Shown piece by piece: positions 13,225-33,549 of a stretch of 43,870 nt of DNA. Under the pieces are notes generated by a model. The model ran no database searches and had not been told where the DNA came from. It saw nothing but the letters and a program-made list of their open reading frames with translations. The translations under genes were made by a program, and so were the position numbers. Each line of letters begins with the position of its first letter. Within the stretch, counting starts at the first letter, position 1. The DNA lies in assembly GCA_016936215.1 (NCBI GenBank), contig JAFGPL010000313.1:1-43870 (forward strand), in the 5' to 3' direction. Source of the DNA: Bacteroidales bacterium. GTDB taxonomy: Bacteria > Bacteroidota > Bacteroidia > Bacteroidales > UBA10428.

Positions 13225-15459
13225 TCAGTTTTGAAGAATCACTTTTTCTTTTATCGGGTCAAAACCTTGCGGGAACAGGGTATAGCGATCTGCAACAGCG
13301 CCTTCGAATTTAACACCGGCCAGTTTGGCCTCGCTTAAATCGGCAAATTTAAGGTTTGCGCCCCGAAGGTCGGCTTTTGTCAGGTCTGCCTCACGAAGAT
13401 TAGCATTGCTGAAGTCACAGTCCCTTAAATCGGAGAGGCTGAGGTCTGCTTCTTTAAGGTTGGCATAATTAAAGAATACGCCACGCAGGTTCTGGCGGCT
13501 TAAATTTACTTCTTTTAGATCGGCACCTGTTAGATCGGCACCTGCAAGTTTTGCCCCGTTAAGTGACGCTTCTTTTAATATTGTATACCGCATACTCGCG
13601 CTTTCAAGATTTGCCCAGTCGAGTGTTGCCTCGCTTAGGTTAGCGTTATCGAGCAGTGCAAATCGAAGGTCTGCAGAGGTAAGGTTGGCTTCGGGTAAAA
13701 CAACACTTCTAAGGTCAGGTACTTCATCAGGGTGTTCGCTTCTCCATTTGTTCCATACCCCCGGTCCTTGTTTTAAGAGGATGATGTGTTCGTCATTGCC
13801 CCTGTTTATTTCATCATTTACCTGGTTAACAACCTGGTTTTCTACGATGGTGTTAAAATTGATTTCTTCGAGCGCAAACCTTACCCCTGAAAGTATTTCT
13901 GATGCAATCAGGTTGAGATCGGTTTCTACAAGGGCTGCACGGATACCATCGAGTATCTCGGCCGAAATCGCCAATGCGTCAACGGCTTCAAGCCCTGCAT
14001 CAACACCCTGTAATGCTTCATTTACAATTAAATTCAGGTCCACCTGGTTTATACCGGCTTCTGCGCCTTTTGCAGCCTCATCTACAATTATATCTACATC
14101 TATTTCATCAAGCCCGGTTTTTACCCCCCGTATGATTTCCTCTTCAAGCATTTGTTCTTCCTCTCCTGATCTGATATAAGCCGAATCTTCTTTAATATCA
14201 TTTTCACCTGCACCTGCATTTGGCCCTGCAGTTTTATTATTGTTACTTTCCAGATCCATCAGCATGTCTTCTGGCGAAGCCTTTTCGTTATGTCGCGGGG
14301 TTATAACACCGGAGGTGTCTTCAACAGACCAAAGCGGGATGTTTTTCCGGGTGTTAAAGTTCTCAGGGTCTTTTGCCCTGCTAATATATTCCGACATACC
14401 TGTATTGAACATCATAATCAGAACTCCTGCAAAGATGACACAGGAAGCGGTAAATCCACCATTAAAATTTGTTTTCATGTTTGGTTGGTTTAATAATCTT
14501 TTAATACGTTTGAATAAATTGTTATTATTTCCATTGATGGCCATAGCCAGTTTTTCATTTAGCAAAAACTGTTCCTGAAAATTCGCAAGCGCTTTTGCAA
14601 AAGCAATTGAATCACCCGATTTTTCGATGGCTATGTCATCACAACAGTTTTCACGCTCTGCCCGAATGGTTTTTGACATCCACCACACAGCAGGGTGAAA
14701 GAAAAAAATGATTTCCACCAGTGACTGCATAATATTTACAAGATAATCACGCCTGATGATGTGGGCAAGTTCATGCATAATGATCATCTCAAGTTCTTTT
14801 GCCGGTAAACCCGTAAAAGCAGATACGGGAAAAAGTATCACCGGCCTGAAAAATCCGATGGCTGCAGGCACTTTCACCATTGCTGACTGCAGGATTTTCA
14901 CCGAAGTAGTAACTTTAAGGTTTTCGCACAGTTTTTTAAATTTATCCTGCCATTGCTGGCTTACCGGTTGTGTGCGGTAATGCTTTAACCTTTGTGTATA
15001 TGCCAGACCGCCAAGAAATTTCAGCATAAAAAACAACATACCAAGTAACCAGCAGGTAACTATCAGGGGAATATTCTGTGAAAAATAGGTATTGAAAGTC
15101 TTTAGCGAAAAATCCCGGTTGACCTTATGCTCAATGGCCTTGACAGTCTGGGATTTTTTCGCGGATTCTATAATACCCCGGGCAGGTGCAGCCTGTTCAG
15201 TCATTACCGGGACAACTGCTGAAATGTGTTTTTCGGCCTGGTAGTATTTAACAAATGTAAAAACCGAAATAACCGGCATAGAGATAAAAAAGGCAACAGC
15301 AATAAAATAACGGCTTTTAGCACTGAATTTTCGGGTAAAAAGCAGCATCAGCCCCATTAACAATGAAACCGCCGCACCCTGCCACAGCGACTGGATAATC
15401 ATGTGGCCAAAAGCCTCTACCAATGGTGAAGGCATTAGGTTCTCTATAAACTGCTTCAT
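13225..15459 (-). CDS. BlaR1-like M56 metallopeptidase with 20-residue and pentapeptide repeats
   Basis: A 744-residue membrane protein. The N-terminal half has about four membrane segments (near 22-42, 52-72, 130-150, 335-355) and an M56 zinc peptidase site, HELAH at 229-233 followed by FFHPAVWW and AERENCCDD. Such proteins sense a signal outside the cell and trigger inactivation of a BlaI-type repressor. Here no penicillin-binding sensor domain is present. After the last membrane segment come five abutting 20-residue repeats (445-544), the linker GVWNKWRSEHPDEVPDL and about 130 residues of pentapeptide repeats (A-D/N-L-x-x, about 583-715). The start overlaps blaI by 4 bp, so the pair is translationally coupled. 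By topology the repeats should lie in the periplasm, an inference. The ligand is unknown. Confidence 0.88.
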   Translation of the reverse strand: MKQFIENLMPSPLVEAFGHMIIQSLWQGAAVSLLMGLMLLFTRKFSAKSRYFIAVAFFISMPVISVFTFVKYYQAEKHISAVVPVMTEQAAPARGIIESAKKSQTVKAIEHKVNRDFSLKTFNTYFSQNIPLIVTCWLLGMLFFMLKFLGGLAYTQRLKHYRTQPVSQQWQDKFKKLCENLKVTTSVKILQSAMVKVPAAIGFFRPVILFPVSAFTGLPAKELEMIIMHELAHIIRRDYLVNIMQSLVEIIFFFHPAVWWMSKTIRAERENCCDDIAIEKSGDSIAFAKALANFQEQFLLNEKLAMAINGNNNNLFKRIKRLLNQPNMKTNFNGGFTASCVIFAGVLIMMFNTGMSEYISRAKDPENFNTRKNIPLWSVEDTSGVITPRHNEKASPEDMLMDLESNNNKTAGPNAGAGENDIKEDSAYIRSGEEEQMLEEEIIRGVKTGLDEIDVDIIVDEAAKGAEAGINQVDLNLIVNEALQGVDAGLEAVDALAISAEILDGIRAALVETDLNLIASEILSGVRFALEEINFNTIVENQVVNQVNDEINRGNDEHIILLKQGPGVWNKWRSEHPDEVPDLRSVVLPEANLTSADLRFALLDNANLSEATLDWANLESASMRYTILKEASLNGAKLAGADLTGADLKEVNLSRQNLRGVFFNYANLKEADLSLSDLRDCDFSNANLREADLTKADLRGANLKFADLSEAKLAGVKFEGAVADRYTLFPQGFDPIKEKVILQN
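13828..14127 (-). repeat. Five 20-residue protein repeats inside the M56 gene
   Basis: Residues 445-544 divide exactly into five 20-residue units starting at 445, 465, 485, 505 and 525, each 60 bp. The consensus is G-V/A-x-x-G/A-L/I-x-x-V/I-D-x-x-x-I-x-x-E-x-x-x. The units differ enough at the DNA level that the array looks old. Hydrophobic and acidic positions alternate as in amphipathic helices. Confidence 0.85.
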
Positions 15460-15839
15460 TTGTTTTCCTCCAGCTTTTGAATATATGCTTTTATCAGCTT
15501 TAATTCCTCAAAAGTTGTGCGATGGTTTCCCAAAACCTGCATAACCAAAGACGAGGCAGAACCTCCAAAGGTTGCATCGAGAAATTTGTCAAGCAATAGT
15601 TCACGGGTTTCTTCTTTCTTTACAAGAGGAATGTAAAGATGTCCCCTTCCATCCTGTTCTCTTGCCAACAATTGTTTTGCAGCCATATTCTGCATGATTT
15701 TAAGGGTAGTGGTATATCCCACATTTTTATTACGGTTTATTTGCTCATGCACAAACTTTACGGTAGCCGGATTGTGTTCCCACAATATTTGCAGTATTTC
15801 GAGTTCTGCCGCTGTAGGTTTCTGGATATTGGTTTTCAT
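15456..15839 (-). CDS. blaI: BlaI/MecI-family transcriptional repressor
   Basis: A 127-residue winged-helix repressor (PTAAELEILQILWEHNPATVKFVHEQINRNKNVGYTTTLKIMQNMAAKQLL, then the wing DGRGHLYIPLV). The C-terminal half (about 80-127) is the dimerisation helices. It is followed by and overlaps the M56 peptidase gene, the standard blaI-blaR arrangement. I chose the ATG at 15839, which gives MKTNIQKPTAAELEIL, the normal N-terminus of the family. A longer in-frame start at 15863 would put the start codon next to a predicted operator. Three matching dyads in its own promoter indicate autorepression. Whether the target includes other genes is unknown. Confidence 0.92.
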   Translation of the reverse strand: MKTNIQKPTAAELEILQILWEHNPATVKFVHEQINRNKNVGYTTTLKIMQNMAAKQLLAREQDGRGHLYIPLVKKEETRELLLDKFLDATFGGSASSLVMQVLGNHRTTFEELKLIKAYIQKLEENK

Positions 15840-15844
15840 TCTAT

Positions 15845-15913
15845 TACGATTTATGTCGTACAAATATACGACATAAATCGTAATAACAAAATTTTTATAC
15901 GATTTTTTTCGTA
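15845..15913 (-). promoter_or_regulatory. blaI promoter with three BlaI-type operators
   Basis: Three 16-bp dyads of the form TACGA-N6-TCGTA lie at 15845-15860, 15867-15882 and 15898-15913. Their centres are 22 and 31 bp apart, close to two and three helical turns. On the minus strand a TTTG element (15887-15890) and a perfect TAnnTTTG element (TATATTTG, 15861-15868) are separated by 18 bp. The middle dyad fills that spacer and the first covers the expected transcription start. Occupied dyads would block the promoter. Confidence 0.85.
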
Positions 15914-16134: not shown

Positions 16135-17133
16135 TTAAGGCAAAACGGGCCTGAACTCGAATCGGGGGAAGCCGTATTTGCCATCAAGCGTATAGCTAAG
16201 AAAACGTAAACTAAAGTAATTGCCTTCAACCGATTTTAAAAGGTAAACCCTGTTGGTTTTTACATTGTAGGTTGCTGTTCCGCCTGCAAAATCAATACTT
16301 ACATCTTTCCAATCCCACCCGATTATATTTTGCCTGTCAACAAATTTTGCTGATAAAACCTGTTCATAGTCAATATTTTCAAAGTTTAAATTTTCGTACA
16401 TGCAAGCCTCTGTTCCATCCGGATTGAGCAGGGCACCCCTTACCAGGTATGGCATCGGAAAAGCAACAATACCGTAAACAAGGTCGTAATAAGGCATGAA
16501 CACGATATCATAACTGCCTTTAAGTGGTTCAAGGTTTTTTTGTTCTTCTTCTTTGAAGTTATAGTATGTAAAATTAAATGAGTCGGCTTTAAGCACGTCA
16601 AGCTGCTTTAAAACAGTTTCTCCGGGTTTTAGGTATTGAAGCAGGTAACAGGAAGAATCGGAAGAAAACATTTGAAACCTTAGATATTCGCTGTAACCCT
16701 GTACACCCTTTTGTGCCAGAATGTAGACCTTATTGTGCGATAAATAAGGAAATACAGAGGTGTCGCACCAGGTTCCAACAGCAGAGGAATCAGGGTATCC
16801 AGTAGGATTGTCATACTGCCATTCCTCATTTCCTGAGATATTATAAGGCTCATTCAAATCTATCAGTGCCGACCTGTAAACAAACAATTCATTTCCTGAG
16901 TTGACCTTTATATGCCAGGAACGGGCATCGCAACCAAATGCCAGGTCCCATTCATCGCGATGGTGTGTTTTGACAACGCTGTTGGTTTCAAAATCAAAAT
17001 AGCCCTGGTAAAATGTGATATCATATTCAATGGTTGAAACCAGCCCGGGATAGGGGGGTACCCTTTGGTCTTCTTCAAAACATGATACAGATAAAAATGC
17101 AATGGCCAGGATGTTAAATAAATATTCTTTCAT
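16135..17133 (-). CDS. HmuY-like lipoprotein (second copy)
   Basis: A 332-residue predicted lipoprotein. The signal peptide MKEYLFNILAIAFLSVSC ends in a lipobox cysteine at residue 18. The body resembles the HmuY family: an N-terminal half with YQGYFDFETN...DEWDLAFGCDARSWHIKVNSGNELF, and a C-terminal half with YDIVFMPYYD, then IIGWDWKD and LLKSVEGNYFSLRFLSYTLDGKYGFPRFEF. HmuY proteins capture heme at the cell surface and pass it to a TonB receptor. The start overlaps the stop of the receptor gene by 4 bp, so they are coupled. HTHHRDEW-type histidines are possible metal or heme ligands but not proven. Binding of another ligand cannot be excluded. Confidence 0.78.
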   Translation of the reverse strand: MKEYLFNILAIAFLSVSCFEEDQRVPPYPGLVSTIEYDITFYQGYFDFETNSVVKTHHRDEWDLAFGCDARSWHIKVNSGNELFVYRSALIDLNEPYNISGNEEWQYDNPTGYPDSSAVGTWCDTSVFPYLSHNKVYILAQKGVQGYSEYLRFQMFSSDSSCYLLQYLKPGETVLKQLDVLKADSFNFTYYNFKEEEQKNLEPLKGSYDIVFMPYYDLVYGIVAFPMPYLVRGALLNPDGTEACMYENLNFENIDYEQVLSAKFVDRQNIIGWDWKDVSIDFAGGTATYNVKTNRVYLLKSVEGNYFSLRFLSYTLDGKYGFPRFEFRPVLP

Positions 17134-19364
17134 GATGATTTACTTTTCAGGATATAATTTACCCTGATGAAAAATGTCCTTCCCCATCCAACCGGCATCT
17201 GGCTGTTGTTTACCCCATGAATTGAAGCTGACGCAGTGGAAAACACCGTAATATTGTTCAACAGGTTTCTGCACCCGGCTGAAATTCTGAGATCCTGGCT
17301 AAGAAAACGGCCGTTAAGAGAGATGTCCACATTATGGTATGGATCGGTGTACTCTTTGGAAATATAGGCTGCTGTTGTAGCATCCCCGATATTGTTTTTG
17401 TAAAAATATTTTTTCCCCGTGTATTTATAGTATGCAACCAGGCTGAGATATTTTCTGTGAACATTATATTGAATCTTGGCAGTTACATCAGGACTGAAAT
17501 CTATTTTTTCCAGGTTACCGGGTGACGAAATTGCGGTTAAAGCTATCCCGGTTTTTACATGAATAAGGTCTTTGTAAGAAATTCCCGTGTTAAGTGCTAT
17601 GCCTTTGGTCTGATATAAACTTCCCGGAAGATTGAAATAAGTGGCAGATTTAAGTTTCCCGGACTGGTCGTAATCAAACAGAAAATCAATTTTGTTTTTA
17701 ACCCGCACCAGGAAGAAGTCGCCTGAAAAGTCATACTGAAACCGGTGAGCAGCATGAATATATGAAACTGAAATATTGTAGTTATGCGCAGTTTCGGCTT
17801 TCAGGTTTTGGTTGCCGAAAACCCTGTGGTTCTGATCGAGAAATTCCATATAAAGCTCTTTAAGGGAAGGCGTTCTGAAACCATTGGCAACCGATGCCCT
17901 GAGCTTTAACCCTGCCAGGTTGTATTTGAGGTTGAAAGAATAGATTAACGGGGGTTTATACCTTGTATTATAACTAACCCTCAATCCGGGCTGAATTTGC
18001 AACCCGGAAAGGATATCCCAGATAAAGCTTGAAAACAGTGCATAATCGCCAATGCTTTTTTCACCGCTGAGCCGCTTACCATAACCGTTTTCATAATTCA
18101 TATCTGTACCGGTAATTATTTCAAGATTTTTCAACCTGAAGGTATGGGCAAGCCGGCCGGAAATCATCCTGAAATTCGTGGTATCATGCATTGACGGGTC
18201 AGTAATAAGGTGTTTCTCCAGATCAACAAGGTTGATATGATAAGAGTTCTTTGCCCTGTTATAAACTGAAAAACCTGCCTGGGCAGTGATTGCAGAAACC
18301 GGGGAGAACCGGTAACCAATACTCAACCCCAAGTTGAGGCGTTTAGTAAAATAGTACCTGTCGTCTGCGGATTCATATAAATTATCACGCGAAAGAGAGT
18401 CTTTGTCCCGGAGTTCTTCGTGTAAAAAATCAACATACACATCTGCCTGAATTTTATTTCCCCTGTAAGCATAATTTACACCGGGCATGTATTGTAGTTT
18501 GGGTTTCCAGACATCAAACCTCGAATTTTTGTCAGGGTTGAAACCAGCAAAAAAATTTCGCGCCATATTAAGCCCAAAACAGTGTTTTTTCAAACCATAG
18601 AACAGGTTCAGGTTCATATTATAGATGCCTGCGGTTTCGTAATTGATCCCGGCTTCTGCCTTCAGTTTTTTTCCCGCAGCAGCCTGTGTAATTATATTTA
18701 TGGCGCCTCCAAGCGCGTTGCTTCCGTATATCACCGATAGTGGCCCTTCAATAATTTCAATATGGTTTGCGTGATGTATCCCTATCTGGTCGAGATCAAT
18801 AATACCCAATTGGCGCCCCGATACAGGCATACCATTATAAAGAATTTTGATATGTTCTCCGCCAAGCCCCCTGATGGAAATTGTCCGCCCGAGCACATTC
18901 TGTTGCATGAGATTGATGTTAAGCTCATTCATAAGCAATCCTGAAAGGTTTACAGCAGCTTTGTGCTCAATGTCTTTTTTTGAAAGCAGGGTAACTTTGT
19001 AAACCGATTGATCGCACCTGCGCGGGGTAACCTGACCGGTTATCACAACTTCTTCTATGTCAAGAAGATCGGGGATGAGTTCGATTTGATTATCGTACTC
19101 AGATGTGAGCGTATCGCTCAAAGTCTTATACCCCATACCCGAAATTTCTAAATAAACCGGCTGTGAAACATCAGTACAGAATTTACCTTCTTTGTCAGAA
19201 AGGATATTCATGGTTTTGCCTTCACTGCATAGCTTCAGTGTTGCAAAGCATATCGGTTCACCTGAATATTTGTCCCTTATTTGGTAACATTTATCCTGCC
19301 CAACCGCAGCGACAAAGGGCACAAGGTATAAGACCAGGGTAATTACTCTAATAGTATAAGCCAC
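17130..19364 (-). CDS. TonB-dependent receptor, HmuR-like (heme or related cofactor)
   Basis: A 744-residue outer-membrane receptor. Residues 1-22 are a signal peptide (VLYLVPFVAAVGQ). A CarboxypepD_reg-like domain follows (about 27-95). The plug domain spans about 105-235 (SIRGLGGEHIKILYNGMPV, IEIIEGPLSVIYGSNALGGAINII). The C-terminal beta-barrel ends in FFIRVNYILK. The segment NGFRTPSLKELYMEF...NHRVFGNQNLKAET resembles the FRAP/NPNL signature of heme receptors, with an intervening histidine. That signature also occurs loosely in other cofactor receptors such as BtuB. Its position between two HmuY-like lipoprotein genes favours heme or an iron-porphyrin. It starts 18 bp after the first lipoprotein. 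Confidence 0.85.
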   Translation of the reverse strand: MAYTIRVITLVLYLVPFVAAVGQDKCYQIRDKYSGEPICFATLKLCSEGKTMNILSDKEGKFCTDVSQPVYLEISGMGYKTLSDTLTSEYDNQIELIPDLLDIEEVVITGQVTPRRCDQSVYKVTLLSKKDIEHKAAVNLSGLLMNELNINLMQQNVLGRTISIRGLGGEHIKILYNGMPVSGRQLGIIDLDQIGIHHANHIEIIEGPLSVIYGSNALGGAINIITQAAAGKKLKAEAGINYETAGIYNMNLNLFYGLKKHCFGLNMARNFFAGFNPDKNSRFDVWKPKLQYMPGVNYAYRGNKIQADVYVDFLHEELRDKDSLSRDNLYESADDRYYFTKRLNLGLSIGYRFSPVSAITAQAGFSVYNRAKNSYHINLVDLEKHLITDPSMHDTTNFRMISGRLAHTFRLKNLEIITGTDMNYENGYGKRLSGEKSIGDYALFSSFIWDILSGLQIQPGLRVSYNTRYKPPLIYSFNLKYNLAGLKLRASVANGFRTPSLKELYMEFLDQNHRVFGNQNLKAETAHNYNISVSYIHAAHRFQYDFSGDFFLVRVKNKIDFLFDYDQSGKLKSATYFNLPGSLYQTKGIALNTGISYKDLIHVKTGIALTAISSPGNLEKIDFSPDVTAKIQYNVHRKYLSLVAYYKYTGKKYFYKNNIGDATTAAYISKEYTDPYHNVDISLNGRFLSQDLRISAGCRNLLNNITVFSTASASIHGVNNSQMPVGWGRTFFIRVNYILKSKSS

Positions 19365-19382
19365 AACAGGTGTATTTGCTGT

Positions 19383-20357
19383 TTACTTTATCTTCTTTTT
19401 TGAGAAACCAAGATTGCCTGTTGCTGCCCCTTCAAAACTTGTAAAGTACAATTGATATACGCTTCCCTGTGTAGTTTTGACAAAATAACTTACATCGTCG
19501 GCGATGGTGTATGTATTTGATTGCATGTCGAATTCTTTCCAGTCATAACCGATGGGTGCCACAGCAGAAACAAAAGTTGCATTTGCAGTGTCGGCCTCCG
19601 ATGGGGTTACTCCTGTTAATTTGGCAACTTTTACGCCCGGTTTCGACAATACCCCTGTAACGATGTAATTGATCTGTGTATCAAAATATTTGGTAAATAA
19701 CAAATCCCAGTTTTCTTTTGCGGGTTCACGGTCTGCTACAGCATTGTCCTTAAGTGAATAATAGATATATTCTTTACCGGCATAAGCATTGTTGGACAGG
19801 GCAACCACCTGCTCATCAGAACCGTCAATATTGGCAAAAAGAAAATGCACTGTGTTTTCATAACCGTTTTTCTGGCGAATAAAAATTTTCTTTACCGAAT
19901 TATCTGCCAGTTTTATAAGATACAGTGCAGCGCCGTTGACATTTTTAGTGGTATGGTTGTAAATACCCCATCCGAAATTAAATCCGCCGCCCATATTGGC
20001 GCTGAATGCGCCTACATCCCATAACTCGAGTGAATTTTGAAGGGCTGTCCAGGAGGCCATGCCGTTGGTGTCTACAGGGTTATAGTAATCTGAGGTGTCA
20101 TTGGAAACTTCAAACAATTTTATTCCGTTACCGCTGTTTATGATAATTGACGGGCTCATTACATAGGTTCCGAAAGCAATGTCCCATCCGGCACGGTTTG
20201 CCGATTGTTTGCTGTCATCTTCAAGGCTGTAATAAATATCATTTTCATAACCGGCACCCATCGTAAGGGTGATATCGCTTTCGGCAGGGCTGTTTTTTTC
20301 CTTTTCACAGGAAGCAATAACCAGTAAAAGAAGAAATAGAATGAATATATTTTTCAT
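19383..20357 (-). CDS. HmuY-like heme-binding lipoprotein (first copy)
   Basis: A 324-residue predicted lipoprotein with signal MKNIFILFLLLLVIASC and lipid-modified C17. Two half-domains share the pattern YYSL-x-D followed by WD: YYSLEDD at 42 with WDIAF at 58, and YYSLKDN at 199 with WDLLF at 217. The C-terminus IGYDWKEF...YFVKTTQGSVYQLYFTSFEG is typical of HmuY (PF14064). The family binds heme outside the cell. It is upstream of the TonB receptor with an 18-bp gap. No convincing promoter was seen in the 70 bp before it, so it may rely on readthrough from the regulator genes. Confidence 0.82.
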   Translation of the reverse strand: MKNIFILFLLLLVIASCEKEKNSPAESDITLTMGAGYENDIYYSLEDDSKQSANRAGWDIAFGTYVMSPSIIINSGNGIKLFEVSNDTSDYYNPVDTNGMASWTALQNSLELWDVGAFSANMGGGFNFGWGIYNHTTKNVNGAALYLIKLADNSVKKIFIRQKNGYENTVHFLFANIDGSDEQVVALSNNAYAGKEYIYYSLKDNAVADREPAKENWDLLFTKYFDTQINYIVTGVLSKPGVKVAKLTGVTPSEADTANATFVSAVAPIGYDWKEFDMQSNTYTIADDVSYFVKTTQGSVYQLYFTSFEGAATGNLGFSKKKIK

Positions 20358-20427
20358 TGTGATGAATTTTAAAGTTTATAATAAAATAAAAATTGCTAAT
20401 GGTATCTACCAGTAAGGCAGGGAGTTT

Positions 20428-20778
20428 TTATGCTGGCGGCGCCCTGAAAGAGATACAACCCTGCAGGCATCGCCTGTCCCCTCCGCTAACGCAAAATACA
20501 TTTAACGGGAATGGTATGAGGGTAATTTCAAAATAGTCATTTTGTAAATGAGTGGTGTTGCTATCCTTTTGGTTTTTCAGATTATCTGAGTAATAACAAA
20601 CATTATCCTTTGCAATAATGAACGAATCTTCAAGTATATTTTCAGAGGCTATCTTCCTGTTTTTCTGATATTTCACAGACTGATGCGCCAGCCCGTTTAC
20701 CAAGAATACACCCCATATAAGGAGCAGGTAAAACAGATAAGGTAATATGGCGCTTCCACTTCCGAAGAAAAACATCAA
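20428..20778 (-). CDS. Small single-pass membrane protein, unknown function
   Basis: A 116-residue ORF with one clear hydrophobic segment near the N-terminus (SAILPYLFYLLLIWGVFLVNGLA), followed by a charged basic stretch (KYQKNRKIASENI). I recognise no domain. It lies between the LuxR-type regulator (31 bp upstream) and the first HmuY gene, on the same strand, consistent with one transcript. The last 25 or so residues (SGGDRRCLQGCISFRAPPA) are encoded by GC-rich sequence resembling dispersed intergenic repeats, so the C-terminus may be a late addition or the reading frame may have decayed there. Confidence 0.55.
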   Translation of the reverse strand: MMFFFGSGSAILPYLFYLLLIWGVFLVNGLAHQSVKYQKNRKIASENILEDSFIIAKDNVCYYSDNLKNQKDSNTTHLQNDYFEITLIPFPLNVFCVSGGDRRCLQGCISFRAPPA

Positions 20779-20809
20779 TATTGAGTTTTATGTCAGCAAA
20801 GATAATTCA

Positions 20810-21388
20810 TTAATTTAAACCAATATCCGAGGGCAGAATAATCTTATTCAAAAGGGCATAAACAGTAAATCCTGCAATAGTCTTAATGCCGAGCTTTGAT
20901 GATATATTTTTCCGGTGGGTGATTACCGTATGGGCGCTTAAAAAAAGTTTGTCGGCAATTTCACGGTTTGTTAACCCTAAGGCGACATATTTCAGGATAT
21001 CTTCTTCACGGCGGCTGAGGATCCTGACCTCGTTGCCGCTTTTCCTTACTTTTTGAAAATTATCAAGCAGATTATTTAGCTTCTTAATAATTGTAACAGG
21101 TTCTTCATCAATAAAAATAGTTTTCAGGTCATTCATTTGAGCAGCTTTTTCGCAACTTATTTTCACCACATTTATTTCTTTAAATTTTGCCAGCTCAATT
21201 TCGTCTTTTTCGGTAAGCAGGCATTCATTAATAACAATAATGCAGTTGTTTCGTTTACCCTTGTTTGCAAAAAATGCTTTCAGTGAAATCATTTCGTGTA
21301 TTTGAAATGATACAAAATGTTCTGAAATAAGCTTTTGAAGCGCCGATCTTATTAAAAAAGAATTTTCTATGATAAAAATATCTTTCAT
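20810..21388 (-). CDS. LuxR-family regulator with degenerate receiver
   Basis: A 192-residue DNA-binding protein. The C-terminal LuxR helix-turn-helix is complete (about 123-185: LSRREEDILKYVALGLTNREIADKLFLSAHTVITHRKNISSKLGI). The N-terminal domain has the size and strand pattern of a receiver but lacks its chemistry. The first strand reads IFIIENS instead of ending in an acidic pair, and the phosphorylation-site strand reads CIIVINECLL, with Asn54 in place of Asp. It should not be phosphorylated in the normal way. It overlaps the hemerythrin gene by 4 bp, and no histidine kinase is adjacent. The likely input is therefore the hemerythrin protein, an inference. Confidence 0.87.
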   Translation of the reverse strand: MKDIFIIENSFLIRSALQKLISEHFVSFQIHEMISLKAFFANKGKRNNCIIVINECLLTEKDEIELAKFKEINVVKISCEKAAQMNDLKTIFIDEEPVTIIKKLNNLLDNFQKVRKSGNEVRILSRREEDILKYVALGLTNREIADKLFLSAHTVITHRKNISSKLGIKTIAGFTVYALLNKIILPSDIGLN

Positions 21389-22125
21389 TTTCTTTTTATG
21401 CTGCCCAGGATTGCTTTTTCCATAGCCCTTACTTTGGGTACCAGCACTGTGTCTTCAATGCGGGCATGATTGTTCAGGTCTTTTTCCAACCTGAAGAGCT
21501 CTGTGAGGATATTGATGCAAATGAAAACATCTTTAACCGGAGGAAGATATTTGATGATAATATTTTTCAAATCAAACAATTTATCTTCAATGTTATCGTG
21601 TTCATCGGCAAAATCATCAATCGAATAGTTCTTTATTTTTTCAGCAACCTGTTTTTCAAGCCTTTTAGTGAGAAATGCTTTTTCTACTTCAAGTACATAC
21701 GAGAATACGTGGTTCTCTTCGCGATCAATGTGTGTCAAAAACTCCTGCCTGTAGTCAAGGAAAAACCGGTTGATAAGCTCCAGGCTTTCAAGGTTTCCCG
21801 GGTTAGAGTTATCCAGAAGTTGCTGTATATATAAACCTATCTGGGGGATCTTTACTTCAAGGTAATATTGATGCGTTTTTCTAAGGTAATTCACTATATC
21901 GGTAAGTCTAAAATTTTGCAGCTCTTTATCCGGAAAATAATCAGGATCGTGAAACGAATTCACTATTTCGAGAAAAAAATTAACATCTATACCTTGCCCC
22001 CTGCAAACTTCTTCAATTGTCTTGTTCCCAAATCCAAGCCTGATATCAAACCGTGTAATTACCTGCAGCAGTGAATAGTTTATATGAATTATATCTGCCA
22101 TTGGCATGGCGCGGTGAATCTGCAT
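21385..22125 (-). CDS. Hemerythrin-domain protein (ScdA/RIC-like)
   Basis: A 246-residue protein. Residues about 8-55 resemble the N-terminal DUF542/ScdA_N domain (MADIIHINYSLLQVITRFDIRLGFGNKTIEEVC), although its usual cysteine-rich ligand pair is reduced to one Cys. Residues about 80-240 form a four-helix hemerythrin-like bundle with candidate di-iron ligands in LRKTHQYY, FLTHIDREENHVF, ADEHDNIEDKL and NNHARIEDTVLVP. Related RIC/YtfE proteins handle nitric oxide or repair iron-sulfur clusters; other hemerythrins sense oxygen or iron. It is translationally coupled to the LuxR-type gene. Together they head the heme-uptake gene run, which suggests a sensor role. Confidence 0.85.
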   Translation of the reverse strand: MQIHRAMPMADIIHINYSLLQVITRFDIRLGFGNKTIEEVCRGQGIDVNFFLEIVNSFHDPDYFPDKELQNFRLTDIVNYLRKTHQYYLEVKIPQIGLYIQQLLDNSNPGNLESLELINRFFLDYRQEFLTHIDREENHVFSYVLEVEKAFLTKRLEKQVAEKIKNYSIDDFADEHDNIEDKLFDLKNIIIKYLPPVKDVFICINILTELFRLEKDLNNHARIEDTVLVPKVRAMEKAILGSIKRK

Positions 22126-22141
22126 GATTGTCTTTTTTCAG

Positions 22142-22149
22142 CAAATTTA
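22142..22149 (-). promoter_or_regulatory. Candidate -7 element upstream of the hemerythrin gene
   Basis: On the minus strand TAAATTTG is a perfect TAnnTTTG match. It would start transcription around 22135, only about 10 nt before the chosen ATG. The -33 element at the expected distance is poor. If this promoter is real, the whole locus down to 16135 could be one transcript. Confidence 0.4.
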
Positions 22150-22178
22150 GTTATTTATAATGAATTTAAATAACGACC

Positions 22179-23099
22179 TTAATCTGAAAACGAATCACGC
22201 GAGAGGCCTATTTTTTTTTCAGAAATTATATCACCGATTGGCTCGACGTGTATGGCTACATCAAAAATATTGTCTATCTGGCTTTTAAGGCTCCTTTCAA
22301 CTTCATGGGCAATTTCATGGGCCTGGCTCAGCGGCATTTTGCCATCAACCTCAATATCTGCCGAAACCATTATTTTATCGCCGATTTTTCTTGTGCGCAC
22401 CCTGTGCGGATTATGAACCCCATCAACCTGTTCGATAGCCTGGAATATTTTATTATAAATACTGCAGTCAAGTGTGCCATCCATCAGGTCTACATTCGAT
22501 TGCATAAAAATCTGGAACCCTACCTTAAGGATCCATGCACTTACAAAGAGGGCTATAATCGGGTCAATAAGAGGGACCCTGAGAATATAAGTTAGCAGCA
22601 ACCCTGTTAAAACAGAGGAGGAGATGAGGATATCGTTCTGCATGTTACGACCGTTGGCTATCAGCATGTTACTGCCGGTTTTTTTCCCGACATTTTTCTG
22701 GTGCCTTGCAAGGAGCAGTTTCCCTATAATTGAAAACAACGTAATCCCGACGGCAATTTTTGAGGGTGCTTCGGTGACAGTTCCTTCAATAAGTTTATGT
22801 ATGGTTGATATGGCAAGTTGCGCGCCGGCAAACAAAATGATAAATGACAGCGCCTTGGTGGCAATGGTATCGGCCTTGCCATAGCCATAGGGAAACCTAA
22901 CATCCGGGGGGCGTGACAATACCCGCGCCGCTATAAGTGTTACAACAGATGCAAGGATGTCGCTCATAGAATCAATTCCATCGGCAACAACAGCCAGGCT
23001 GCCTGAGATTAAACCCACAACCATTTTCGACGCTGCAAGCAGCGCGTTTCCAATAATGCCGGTCCAGGAGGCAACTTTAATTTCTCGTTCCCTGTTCAA
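22179..23099 (-). CDS. Cation diffusion facilitator family metal transporter
   Basis: A 306-residue inner-membrane metal/proton antiporter, with six predicted membrane segments in the first 210 residues and a cytoplasmic metal-binding domain (VDGVHNPHRVRTRKIGDKIMVSADIEVDGKMPLSQAHEIAHEVE). The transport site can be read by alignment with E. coli FieF/YiiP. Helix 2 has D-S-M-S-D (DxxxD), but helix 5 has N-M-Q-N-D, with Asn where zinc and iron exporters have His or Asp. Substrate is therefore uncertain; manganese or iron export is as plausible as zinc. It is on the same strand as the hemerythrin locus, 53 bp upstream, and the MITE lies just in front of it. Confidence 0.9.
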   Translation of the reverse strand: MNREREIKVASWTGIIGNALLAASKMVVGLISGSLAVVADGIDSMSDILASVVTLIAARVLSRPPDVRFPYGYGKADTIATKALSFIILFAGAQLAISTIHKLIEGTVTEAPSKIAVGITLFSIIGKLLLARHQKNVGKKTGSNMLIANGRNMQNDILISSSVLTGLLLTYILRVPLIDPIIALFVSAWILKVGFQIFMQSNVDLMDGTLDCSIYNKIFQAIEQVDGVHNPHRVRTRKIGDKIMVSADIEVDGKMPLSQAHEIAHEVERSLKSQIDNIFDVAIHVEPIGDIISEKKIGLSRDSFSD

Positions 23100-31309: not shown

Positions 31310-32866
31310 ATGAAAAAAAGCTGGATATGGATAACGCTTGTTTTTATTGGCCTTGTGATGTCGGGCCTTATCTTTTTCCAGTTTTACTGGATAAAAAACT
31401 CATTTTCGATTAAAGAACAGCAATTTGACCAGCTTGTAATAAGAACACTTTCTGAAATAGCCCTGGCGATTCAGAAGCAGGAGGCCCGCGAACAGGTCAT
31501 TACAAGAATTGATCCCGCATATATAGACTCAAACCTTTACAGGCTTGGAAATGCCTATAGTGCAGATACCCCGGTGTACAATGAAAATATGATGATTAAA
31601 CTTCAGCACGATATTGCCATCAGCGATGAACAGTATGAAAAAGACATCCGCCGCAATTCACAGAGAAAAGACAAAAAAAGTAGTGAGGATAACAATAAAG
31701 GACTAAACCATGAGGATGATCAAACCCTGTATGAACCAAAAGCTACCGAACTGTTGAATAAGCGTAAGGCTTTAATCAACAGCATTATAGAAAACATGTT
31801 CAGGTTTAGTCCGCGAATTGAAAACCGGATTAGCAAACAGGTGCTTGAGGAATTTCTCAGAAAAACATTTGCCGACAGGGGTATTACCCTTCCTTTTGAA
31901 TTTGCAGTTACCAAATGGAATACAATGACTGCTTTTAAATCACATAATTTTGTCCTGAACGATGAAATTGAATATTACAAAGTACAGCTTTTCCCGGATG
32001 ATTTTTATTCCGAGTCGAATTACCTGTTGCTTTATTTCCCCGATAAAAAGCAATCAATAGTTAAATCATTGGGATTTATGGCTATAGCCTCAATATCGCT
32101 TGCTGTAATATTGATTATTGGTTTTACCTTAACTGTTTTTATAATTTTCAGGCAGAAGAGATTGTCAGAAATAAGAAGCGATTTTGTAAGCAATATGACC
32201 CACGAACTGAAAACCCCTATTTCAACAATATCGCTGGCTTCACAAATGCTTACAGATCCGGGGATACCGAATGAATCAAAAAATGTAGGGTACTTATCAG
32301 GAATTATTTCCGAAGAAAGCAGAAAACTTGGTTTCCAGGTAGAGAAAGTGCTCCAACTGGCTATTTTCGAGAAAGGCAACCTTGACCTTAAGTTCAAAAT
32401 GTGCGATATCCATGAAATAATTACGAACGTAATCAACACATTCAATATTCAAGTCAAACACAAGGAGGGTGCTATTACCCCGGCCCTGACAGCTACCAAT
32501 TATACCATTCAGGCAGACCAGGTGCATATCACCAATGTTTTTTCAAACCTGCTCGACAATGCCATAAAATACTGTGAAGTAAATCCTGATATTAAAATCA
32601 GTTCCAGGAACGAGAATGGTCATCTTATTGTAGAAGTGAAAGATAATGGTATTGGTATGAACCGCCAGGAACTGAAGAAAATTTTTGAAAAATTTTACCG
32701 AATCCCCACCGGAAATATTCATACGGTTAAAGGGTTCGGGCTCGGGTTAAGCTATGTTAAAAAAATTGTTGACGAACACAAAGGGCATATAGATGTTGAA
32801 AGTCAACCCTACGAGGGTAGTACCTTTAAAATTTATTTGCCGGTAAATAATAATATTCAGTCATGA
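31310..32866 (+). CDS. Membrane sensor histidine kinase
   Basis: A 518-residue kinase. Membrane segments are near residues 5-27 and 255-280, bracketing a periplasmic sensor region of about 220 residues that is rich in charged residues (RRNSQRKDKKSSEDNNKG). The HisKA domain contains the phosphorylated H298 in FVSNMTHELKTPIST. The ATPase domain has NLLDNAIKYC (N box), VEVKDNGIGM (G1) and GFGLGLSYVKKIVDEH (G2). There is no HAMP domain. The stop overlaps the start of the response-regulator gene by 4 bp, so it is a cognate pair. The arrangement resembles the RprX/RprY family of Bacteroidota. The signal is unknown. Confidence 0.93.
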   Translation: MKKSWIWITLVFIGLVMSGLIFFQFYWIKNSFSIKEQQFDQLVIRTLSEIALAIQKQEAREQVITRIDPAYIDSNLYRLGNAYSADTPVYNENMMIKLQHDIAISDEQYEKDIRRNSQRKDKKSSEDNNKGLNHEDDQTLYEPKATELLNKRKALINSIIENMFRFSPRIENRISKQVLEEFLRKTFADRGITLPFEFAVTKWNTMTAFKSHNFVLNDEIEYYKVQLFPDDFYSESNYLLLYFPDKKQSIVKSLGFMAIASISLAVILIIGFTLTVFIIFRQKRLSEIRSDFVSNMTHELKTPISTISLASQMLTDPGIPNESKNVGYLSGIISEESRKLGFQVEKVLQLAIFEKGNLDLKFKMCDIHEIITNVINTFNIQVKHKEGAITPALTATNYTIQADQVHITNVFSNLLDNAIKYCEVNPDIKISSRNENGHLIVEVKDNGIGMNRQELKKIFEKFYRIPTGNIHTVKGFGLGLSYVKKIVDEHKGHIDVESQPYEGSTFKIYLPVNNNIQS

Positions 32867-33549
32867 TAAAAATTAAAGTACTGTTAGCCGAAGACGATGA
32901 AAACCTGGGATCGCTGCTCATGGAGTATTTAATAGCCAAGTCTTACGACTGCGATTGGTTTGTAAATGGCGAAAAAGCGTATAAAAGCTTCGTGAAAAAC
33001 CATTACGATCTCTGCATCCTCGATATAATGATGCCTGTTAAAGACGGTTATACACTGGCAAGGGAAATACGGATGACTAATACTGAGATACCGATTATTT
33101 TCCTTACAGCCAAGTCGCTCAAAGAAGATGTAATTGAAGGGTTCAAAGCCGGTGGAGATGATTATATCACCAAACCCTTCAGCATGGAAGAGCTCATTTT
33201 TCGTATAGAGGCCATTATACGCCGGGCAAAAAAAGAGATGATCTCTCCGCAGTCGGAATATAAAATTGGGAGGTATATCTTTAATGCCGACAAGCAGTTG
33301 CTAATCTATGAGAATACCGAACATAACCTTACCACAAAAGAATCTGAACTGTTGAAACTCTTATGTAACAACAAGAACATGGTGCTGGAGCGTAATTTTG
33401 CGTTGAAAACCATCTGGATTGATGATAACTATTTTAATGCCAGAAGCATGGATGTTTACATTGCCAAATTGCGAAAATACCTGAAAGAAGATCCTGCTGT
33501 TCAGATCTTAAATATTCACGGTAAAGGGTTCAAGCTTATAGACAAATAG
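32863..33549 (+). CDS. OmpR-family response regulator
   Basis: A 228-residue regulator. The receiver domain (1-120) has the acidic pair AEDDENLG, the phosphorylated D54 in LCILDIMMPVKDG, and the conserved Thr and Lys in FLTAKS and ITKPFSM. The C-terminal winged helix (about 135-228) contains TTKESELLKLL and DVYIAKLRKYLKEDP...NIHGKGFKLI. It is coupled to the upstream kinase by a 4-bp overlap. It resembles RprY; its targets are not visible here. Confidence 0.94.
   Translation: MIKIKVLLAEDDENLGSLLMEYLIAKSYDCDWFVNGEKAYKSFVKNHYDLCILDIMMPVKDGYTLAREIRMTNTEIPIIFLTAKSLKEDVIEGFKAGGDDYITKPFSMEELIFRIEAIIRRAKKEMISPQSEYKIGRYIFNADKQLLIYENTEHNLTTKESELLKLLCNNKNMVLERNFALKTIWIDDNYFNARSMDVYIAKLRKYLKEDPAVQILNIHGKGFKLIDK

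Follow-up and report, generated by a model that had tools for sequence, protein, structure and literature searches.

A hemerythrin–LuxR gene pair beside a heme-uptake-type module in a Bacteroidales genome, a probable two-piece iron- or redox-sensing regulator

In Porphyromonas gingivalis and Bacteroides thetaiotaomicron, a hemerythrin gene and the gene for the regulator CdhR form an operon that is induced by iron starvation (6.9–7.3-fold and 16.3–20-fold under iron depletion, respectively), and in Prevotella intermedia the two are fused (PMC10434189). Studies of P. gingivalis link CdhR to hmuYR (PMC2671838, PMC3832793); PMC10434189 calls the way in which CdhR controls hmuYR unclear, on the ground that iron binding by CdhR is not shown. 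That paper ties hemerythrin and regulator together, which PMC10101095 and PMC13252398 do not in the parts used here, the latter naming hemerythrin only in a reference. Here, we analyzed a contig of a Bacteroidales bacterium (JAFGPL010000313.1; the whole stretch of 43,870 nt is termed the window) in which a gene pair for a hemerythrin-domain protein (Hr) and a LuxR-type partner regulator (LuxR) is followed by a module of a small gene, a HmuY-family gene, a TonB-dependent receptor gene and a second HmuY-family gene. As in PG1236–cdhR (PG1237), BT0519–BT0520 and the fused PIN17_RS10465, the hemerythrin gene precedes the response-regulator-type gene, and we base the orthology on this architecture and on PMC10434189. 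The first-pass annotation of the window knew of no described system of this kind. The gene pair itself is in fact known; we add new evidence for its probable mode of action and, in this window, a link to a heme-uptake-type module that is unusually direct. Judged by locus numbers, the P. gingivalis pair (PG1236–37) lies far from hmu (PG1551–56), whereas the window pair adjoins its module; the numbers in B. thetaiotaomicron are close (Hmu genes BT0491–99, flavodoxin BT0517, pair BT0519–20; PMC10434189).

For a regulator of iron uptake that cannot be phosphorylated, the closest precedents are the aspartate-less receiver (ALR) class and RitR, which, like the LuxR of the window, have a receiver without the phosphorylated aspartate and, as is proposed for LuxR, act on an iron/heme uptake operon (PMC4395418, PMC5965902). 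RitR is of the OmpR type and responds to peroxide via its own Cys128, whereas in the window the proposed input is a separate di-iron-type protein and the output a LuxR helix-turn-helix (HTH). We consider it probable, at roughly 60%, that Hr and LuxR together form a transcription factor in two pieces that senses iron or redox state, acts on heme uptake and flavodoxin and is itself probably under the control of Fur. The features on which we rely are the following:

21385–22125, minus strand: Hr, a RIC/YtfE-like hemerythrin protein of 246 amino acids (aa) (Pfam PF01814, 4.6e-8; profile, fold and ligands)
20810–21388, minus strand: LuxR/NarL-type regulator of 192 aa with a degenerate receiver and a GerE HTH (Pfam GerE, 9.2e-17)
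20428–20778, minus strand: small protein with a hydrophobic N-terminal stretch and a C-terminal RAPP motif; first gene of the module
19383–20357, minus strand: HmuY-family lipoprotein-like protein 1 (PF14064, 1.5e-10)
17130–19364, minus strand: TonB-dependent receptor, putative heme cargo (PF00593, 2e-25; PF07715, 1.9e-16)
16135–17133, minus strand: HmuY-family lipoprotein-like protein 2 (PF14064, 7.3e-14)
22153–22171, no strand assigned: Fur/PerR-type 7-1-7 box ATTTAAATTCATTATAAAT upstream of Hr (matrix score and exact pattern match)
22142–22149, minus strand: predicted Bacteroidota-type -7 box TAAATTTG of the Hr–LuxR unit, adjoining the Fur-type box
20797–20804, minus strand: putative -7-like box TATCTTTG just beyond the LuxR stop
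22179–23099, minus strand: CDF cation efflux protein upstream of the pair, given as context (PF01545, 2.1e-42)

The six genes from Hr to the second HmuY gene all lie on the minus strand (16135–22125), and positions and Pfam matches agree with the order first annotated. The reading frames of Hr and LuxR overlap by 4 bp, and about 31 bp separate LuxR from the small gene. The -7 box TAAATTTG was assigned with TAnnTTTG, which we take to be the consensus; TATCTTTG is possibly the module's own promoter, which would agree with the separated modules found in two other loci (L062, L065; see below). The Hr query has one match in the window's own genome and PF14064 has two, all inside the window, and two further hemerythrin-domain proteins are encoded elsewhere in this genome.

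The AlphaFold model of LuxR (pLDDT 89.9) contains a receiver-like fold that matches receivers at Z 12.5–13.7, with RitR C128D among the listed matches (Z 13.2), and a GerE HTH follows. Helix alpha4 is missing from the monomer model; members of the ALR class tend to retain the dimer interface largely (PMC4395418). The column of the phosphorylated aspartate (phospho-Asp) holds Asn54, as had been noted at first, and LuxR thus has what defines the ALR class, a receiver fold without a phosphorylatable Asp. The acidic pair, taken earlier to be missing altogether, is half preserved: Glu9 is kept and the second position is Asn10, leaving one acidic residue, while the receiver Lys is replaced by Ile. 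In a deduplicated alignment restricted to partners of 170–240 aa (159 rows), the phospho-Asp column is occupied by Asn in 81 proteins, by Ser in 24 and by Asp in 21, with an Asp within two columns of it in 50. At the first acidic position, 80 have Glu and 10 have Asp; at the second, 8 have Asp and 11 have Glu. The Lys is retained in 4. The receiver is therefore without its phospho-Asp in the window and degenerate across the family, with some members retaining the Asp; even among the three comparison regulators, one carries Thr at this column. The Pfam Response_reg model gave no match to the window LuxR at E up to 10 and matched 14 of 64 relatives at E ≤ 1 (best 6.8e-5). Within the receiver-like domain, relative entropy reaches 1.43 in alpha1, 1.43 in beta1 and 1.52 in beta3, against 0.42–0.70 in alpha2, alpha3 and alpha5; the conservation of alpha1 may be inherited, because its RxGL motif is also common to the ordinary regulators compared. 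With regard to the earlier statement that no kinase is nearby, the scan of the window (29 of 37 open reading frames (ORFs) listed, part of them at E ≤ 1e-10) returned a single histidine kinase (31310–32866), which overlaps its own OmpR-type regulator (32863–33549).

The family profile of Hr aligns with almost the whole of Staphylococcus aureus ScdA (4.3e-10) and with the bundle part of Escherichia coli YtfE (1.6e-8), and the predicted structure (pLDDT 93.5, pTM 0.89) superposes on the YtfE fold with Z 14.6 (rmsd 3.0, 147 residues aligned). Because de novo helical bundles reach similar fold scores, it is the sequence match that carries the RIC/YtfE-like assignment. Like YtfE and ScdA, Hr has a helical domain at the N-terminus and a four-helix bundle whose ligand motifs correspond to theirs; by sequence and fold it contains the di-iron ligand set (H85, H132, E136, H176, (E180), H220, E224), a predicted metal site. 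Among 193 Hr sequences, H85, H132 and E136 are each retained in 187, H176 in 183, H220 in 190 and E224 in 187, while E180 is variable. Unlike YtfE and ScdA, the window Hr has LGFG in place of the RIC dicysteine (FCCGG type), stays under the cut-off of the NCBIfam RIC model TIGR03652 (68.6 vs 204.7 bits) and is paired with a regulator. Cys41, which sits in the domain where RIC proteins have the dicysteine, is kept in 192 of 193 sequences, above every metal ligand, and could be redox-active or have a part in metal binding.

YtfE and ScdA are nitrosative and oxidative stress proteins, and this closest kinship in fold and sequence, together with Cys41, speaks for a different signal: Hr may sense nitric oxide (NO) or oxygen/redox and not iron supply, with iron starvation merely raising the Hr level through a Fur-type box, a control that leaves room for a second signal. 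Another hemerythrin-domain protein of P. gingivalis, PG_0686, affects hmu and cdhR expression (PMC10101095) and fits the same idea. Set against it are the loss of the RIC dicysteine and, as a weak point given that NO-related neighbours were not searched for, the recurrence of iron-starvation genes around the pair (HmuY and/or an FldA-type flavodoxin in the fetched stretch of 19 of 193 Hr loci; CDF). On balance, we regard an NO or oxygen sensor as somewhat unlikely.

Next downstream of 165 of the 193 distinct Hr ORFs (duplicates were removed on the basis of the last 120 residues) lies a LuxR gene, found by ORF calling in 161 and by a six-frame check in 4; of the remainder, 22 are fused, one has LuxR upstream and for five none was found. 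The gap between the two genes is -30 to +12 bp in 139 of 161 cases. Of 392 genomes of the order, 286 have a match to the Hr profile at E ≤ 1e-3, the weakest of which may be other hemerythrins; phylum-wide, 28 of 296 genomes match at 1e-30. From the phylum sample, 20 of 29 listed places were fetched: five have LuxR directly downstream, one is fused, one has no Hr ORF, three lack both a CC motif (within their first 60 residues) and an adjacent LuxR, and ten are CC-bearing RICs, which served as a control and of which none has LuxR beside it (0/10). The direct coupling of Hr and regulator proposed at the outset is thus supported by adjacency and by natural fusions. Two sequences from human faeces labelled Bacteriophage sp. 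(L121 and L122; MT836993.1, MT837938.1) also carry an Hr–LuxR pair, amid ordinary-looking bacterial genes, and are possibly host DNA.

At least 21 of the 392 genomes of the order, in 12 family codes, encode Hr fused to the HTH as a single open frame that matches almost the entire fused query; the query itself has no receiver, which favours receiver-less fusions. In the 22 fusions that we examined (296–361 aa), the HTH begins at most about 60 residues past the Hr part, leaving no room for a receiver. As a proportion, 22 of 193 overstates their frequency, because loci L123–L142 (partly), L143–L172 and L184–L197 were picked for long frames or likeness to the fused protein. Two fusions come from outside the order (L252, labelled Ignavibacteriae and counted among the 22, as is the ligandless L125; and L338, 359 aa), and parsimony assigns five changes to the fusion state on a quick tree in which 71 of 190 inner branches are weak. 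The count in the order and the absence of receiver space in all 22 are new here; the P. intermedia fusion was already noted in PMC10434189, in passages that are silent on a lost receiver. A clade of six Hr paralogs (L043, L047, L088, L089, L122, L125) has most ligands replaced, by a single change on the tree, and is still paired or, in L125, fused with LuxR; for five of the six, the source genome yielded a metal-type copy as well (G041, G043, G047, G052, G081).

Since Hr and the regulator are sometimes fused, the iron-binding part is probably the sensor of the switch, and the absence of a receiver from fusions suggests that this domain serves as an adaptor and nothing more. A reading at odds with this, in which Hr is an enzyme or iron-repair protein that shares the operon by chance while LuxR answers another ligand or tyrosine phosphorylation, can point to descriptions of YtfE as a nitrite reductase and earlier as an iron donor for repair (PMC9052748), and to a link of P. 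gingivalis CdhR to tyrosine (de)phosphorylation (PMC4082711). The Hr–HTH fusions without a receiver, the ligandless clade that stays paired or fused and the loss of the RIC dicysteine all count against it, and we consider it highly improbable.

Under a two-piece sensor, the RIC-like di-iron bundle would act as an input domain in trans, and the activity of the partner HTH would depend on the state of the bundle's metal site (loaded with iron, vacant, oxidised or nitrosylated). The receiver-like domain would be a docking platform, no longer a phospho-acceptor, and could for that reason be dropped once Hr is fused to the HTH. The pair would then act on iron-saving genes, namely the HmuY–TonB–HmuY module in the window and flavodoxin in relatives. 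In ordinary response regulators, the four-helix bundle of the kinase docks on alpha1; by analogy, the Hr bundle may dock on alpha1 of the receiver as a histidine-kinase bundle would. The more specific proposal is that Bacteroidota govern iron scavenging by a one-component system in two pieces, in which a RIC-derived Hr is itself the sensor of cytosolic iron and gates an aspartate-less LuxR through contact with the receiver-like domain of that regulator, possibly at alpha1; this is tentative, and we would give it somewhat less than even odds.

Upstream of Hr, ATTTAAATTCATTATAAAT scores 19.3 bits with a matrix trained solely on 19 flavodoxin upstreams of relatives, and it presumably resembles the Fur/PerR 7-1-7 boxes, whose consensus we likewise assume. 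We read this AT-rich palindrome as Fur/PerR-type and rejected it as a LuxR site, since flavodoxin and a FUR-family gene have the same box ahead of them. In the window's own genome, which has three FUR-family genes, the pattern occurs at 26 sites with at most one mismatch (ATTTAAATTCATTATAAAT exactly), while the reversed pattern occurs at 2. A FUR-family gene (site centre 57 bp before it) and a divergent glycosidase gene flank one exact site, and further sites lie ahead of genes for SufB-, Fe/Mn superoxide dismutase-, [2Fe-2S]- and NuoF-like proteins. Of the 188 Hr ORFs (out of 193) with full upstreams, 11 have a box of at least 14 bits ahead of them; other genes have one in 14 of 2024 cases (p = 1.9e-6), and shuffled sequences in 1 of 940. 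Upstreams of small–HmuY modules reach 12 bits in 1 of 19 cases, and that of the window module scores about 0. Under a Fur-type box, the window pair would be made under iron scarcity, and the sequence suggests a regulatory order of Fur, then pair, then module.

The module itself has a recognizable composition. Its first gene, initially described as encoding a small membrane protein, is conserved: an ORF ending in R(A/G)PP stands just ahead of a HmuY or TonB gene in 19 of 31 loci chosen for HmuY (window 20428–20778, L213:12056–12427 and 17 others; 12 are without it), and the idea of a spurious frame was rejected on this basis. The membrane nature of the product was judged by eye only, and the small proteins tested, that of the window included, matched no Pfam or NCBIfam model. 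The HmuY-family protein adjoins a TonB receptor, as in the HmuYR system (Pfam); the receptor scored far under the cut-offs of the NCBIfam hemin and B12 models, and heme is its putative cargo. Directly downstream of the locus (13225–15863) are genes for a BlaR1-type M56 peptidase with pentapeptide repeats and a BlaI/penicillinase repressor.

Pair and module are separate units: the module also occurs without the pair nearby, and Hr lies mostly away from HmuY. Of 61 pair loci, 4 have a HmuY gene in the stretch fetched. Two genes on the opposite strand part the pair from the module in L062 and L065, and a fixed pair-plus-heme operon is not supported. This counts against the first-pass annotation under a refuting condition of its own, that the pair be conserved without heme-uptake neighbours. 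Pair and HmuY are nevertheless near each other more often than a simple estimate of chance gives. Of 99 relatives, 28 have HmuY and 22 of these an Hr match as well; in 6 of the 22, both are within 25 kb (P 2e-7 to 2e-4 at a 1.25–4 percent chance per genome; 1.3e-5 at 2.5 percent). As four of the six belong to one family, a recount by family gives 3 of 14 (P 6e-4 to 0.017; 0.005 at 2.5 percent), and relatedness makes the P values rough at both levels. The module is downstream of the pair on the same strand in 8 of 80 named loci. Flavodoxin (two copies in L219) stands between pair and module in L213, L214, L218, L219, L233 and L235, where Hr and LuxR are followed by flavodoxin, small gene, HmuY, TonB receptor and HmuY; the flavodoxin near the pair exceeds the TIGR01752 cut-off. 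Among the neighbours in representative annotated loci are genes of housekeeping functions (Era/Der-type GTPases, DnaG, RF3, a HemN/HemW-like protein and a DNA polymerase beta subunit). A CDF cation efflux gene is also near the pair in L052, L062, L065, L271 and L276 and may belong to the iron theme.

These data bear on whether the HmuY module stands beside the pair by chance, the pair controlling other genes in this organism. The low count of HmuY near the pair fits such a neighbourhood, as does a motif search upstream of the modules, which found no clear LuxR motif (log-likelihood 47.8 vs 36.1–44.0 in six shuffles searched with fewer starts). Hr and HmuY also do not co-occur significantly: Hr is present in 22 of 28 HmuY genomes and in 47 of 71 others (p = 0.33). 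The proximity within 25 kb and the same-strand order argue the other way, and by analogy so does the published work on P. gingivalis CdhR, a regulator of hmuYR, which supports a link of the pair to heme uptake (PMC2671838, PMC3832793, PMC10434189). We therefore judge a chance neighbourhood unlikely.

Several observations weigh against a Fur-controlled metal sensor acting on heme uptake. HmuY does not track Hr, as just described, and the ligandless clade indicates that pairing can outlive the metal. A strong box precedes just 11–13 of 188 Hr ORFs, and its rate ahead of modules is no different (1/19 vs 13/188, p = 1.0), so the order of Fur, pair and module is drawn from the window alone. Several sites in the window's own genome lie ahead of genes that have no obvious connection to iron (AdoHcyase, DnaA, aspartate decarboxylase, glycosidases). 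For P. gingivalis, CdhR is reported as a repressor of hmuYR in PMC2671838 and as an activator in PMC3832793, a conflict of sign; it is also linked to tyrosine phosphorylation, as mentioned, and tied to SigCH by a title in the reference list of PMC10434189. Within the iron- or redox-sensing interpretation that we prefer, physical contact of the two proteins, the metal as the signal, the sign of the regulation, Fur on the box and the action of the pair on its own module are what we infer.

Hr is present in most sampled genomes of the order (286/392), with published relatives in gut and oral species, and the partner Hr is an obvious candidate for the iron site missing from CdhR. The natural fusions and the ligandless clade provide ready-made test objects. 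Among eukaryotes, FBXL5 is a hemerythrin iron sensor that takes part in the control of iron uptake. Like Hr, BRUTUS has a hemerythrin bundle that is proposed to sense iron for the control of iron uptake (PMC12022348); BRUTUS and FBXL5 are ubiquitin ligases, not transcription factors. If Hr does sense cytosolic iron directly, the Hr–LuxR pair would be a bacterial transcriptional counterpart of these eukaryotic hemerythrin iron sensors.

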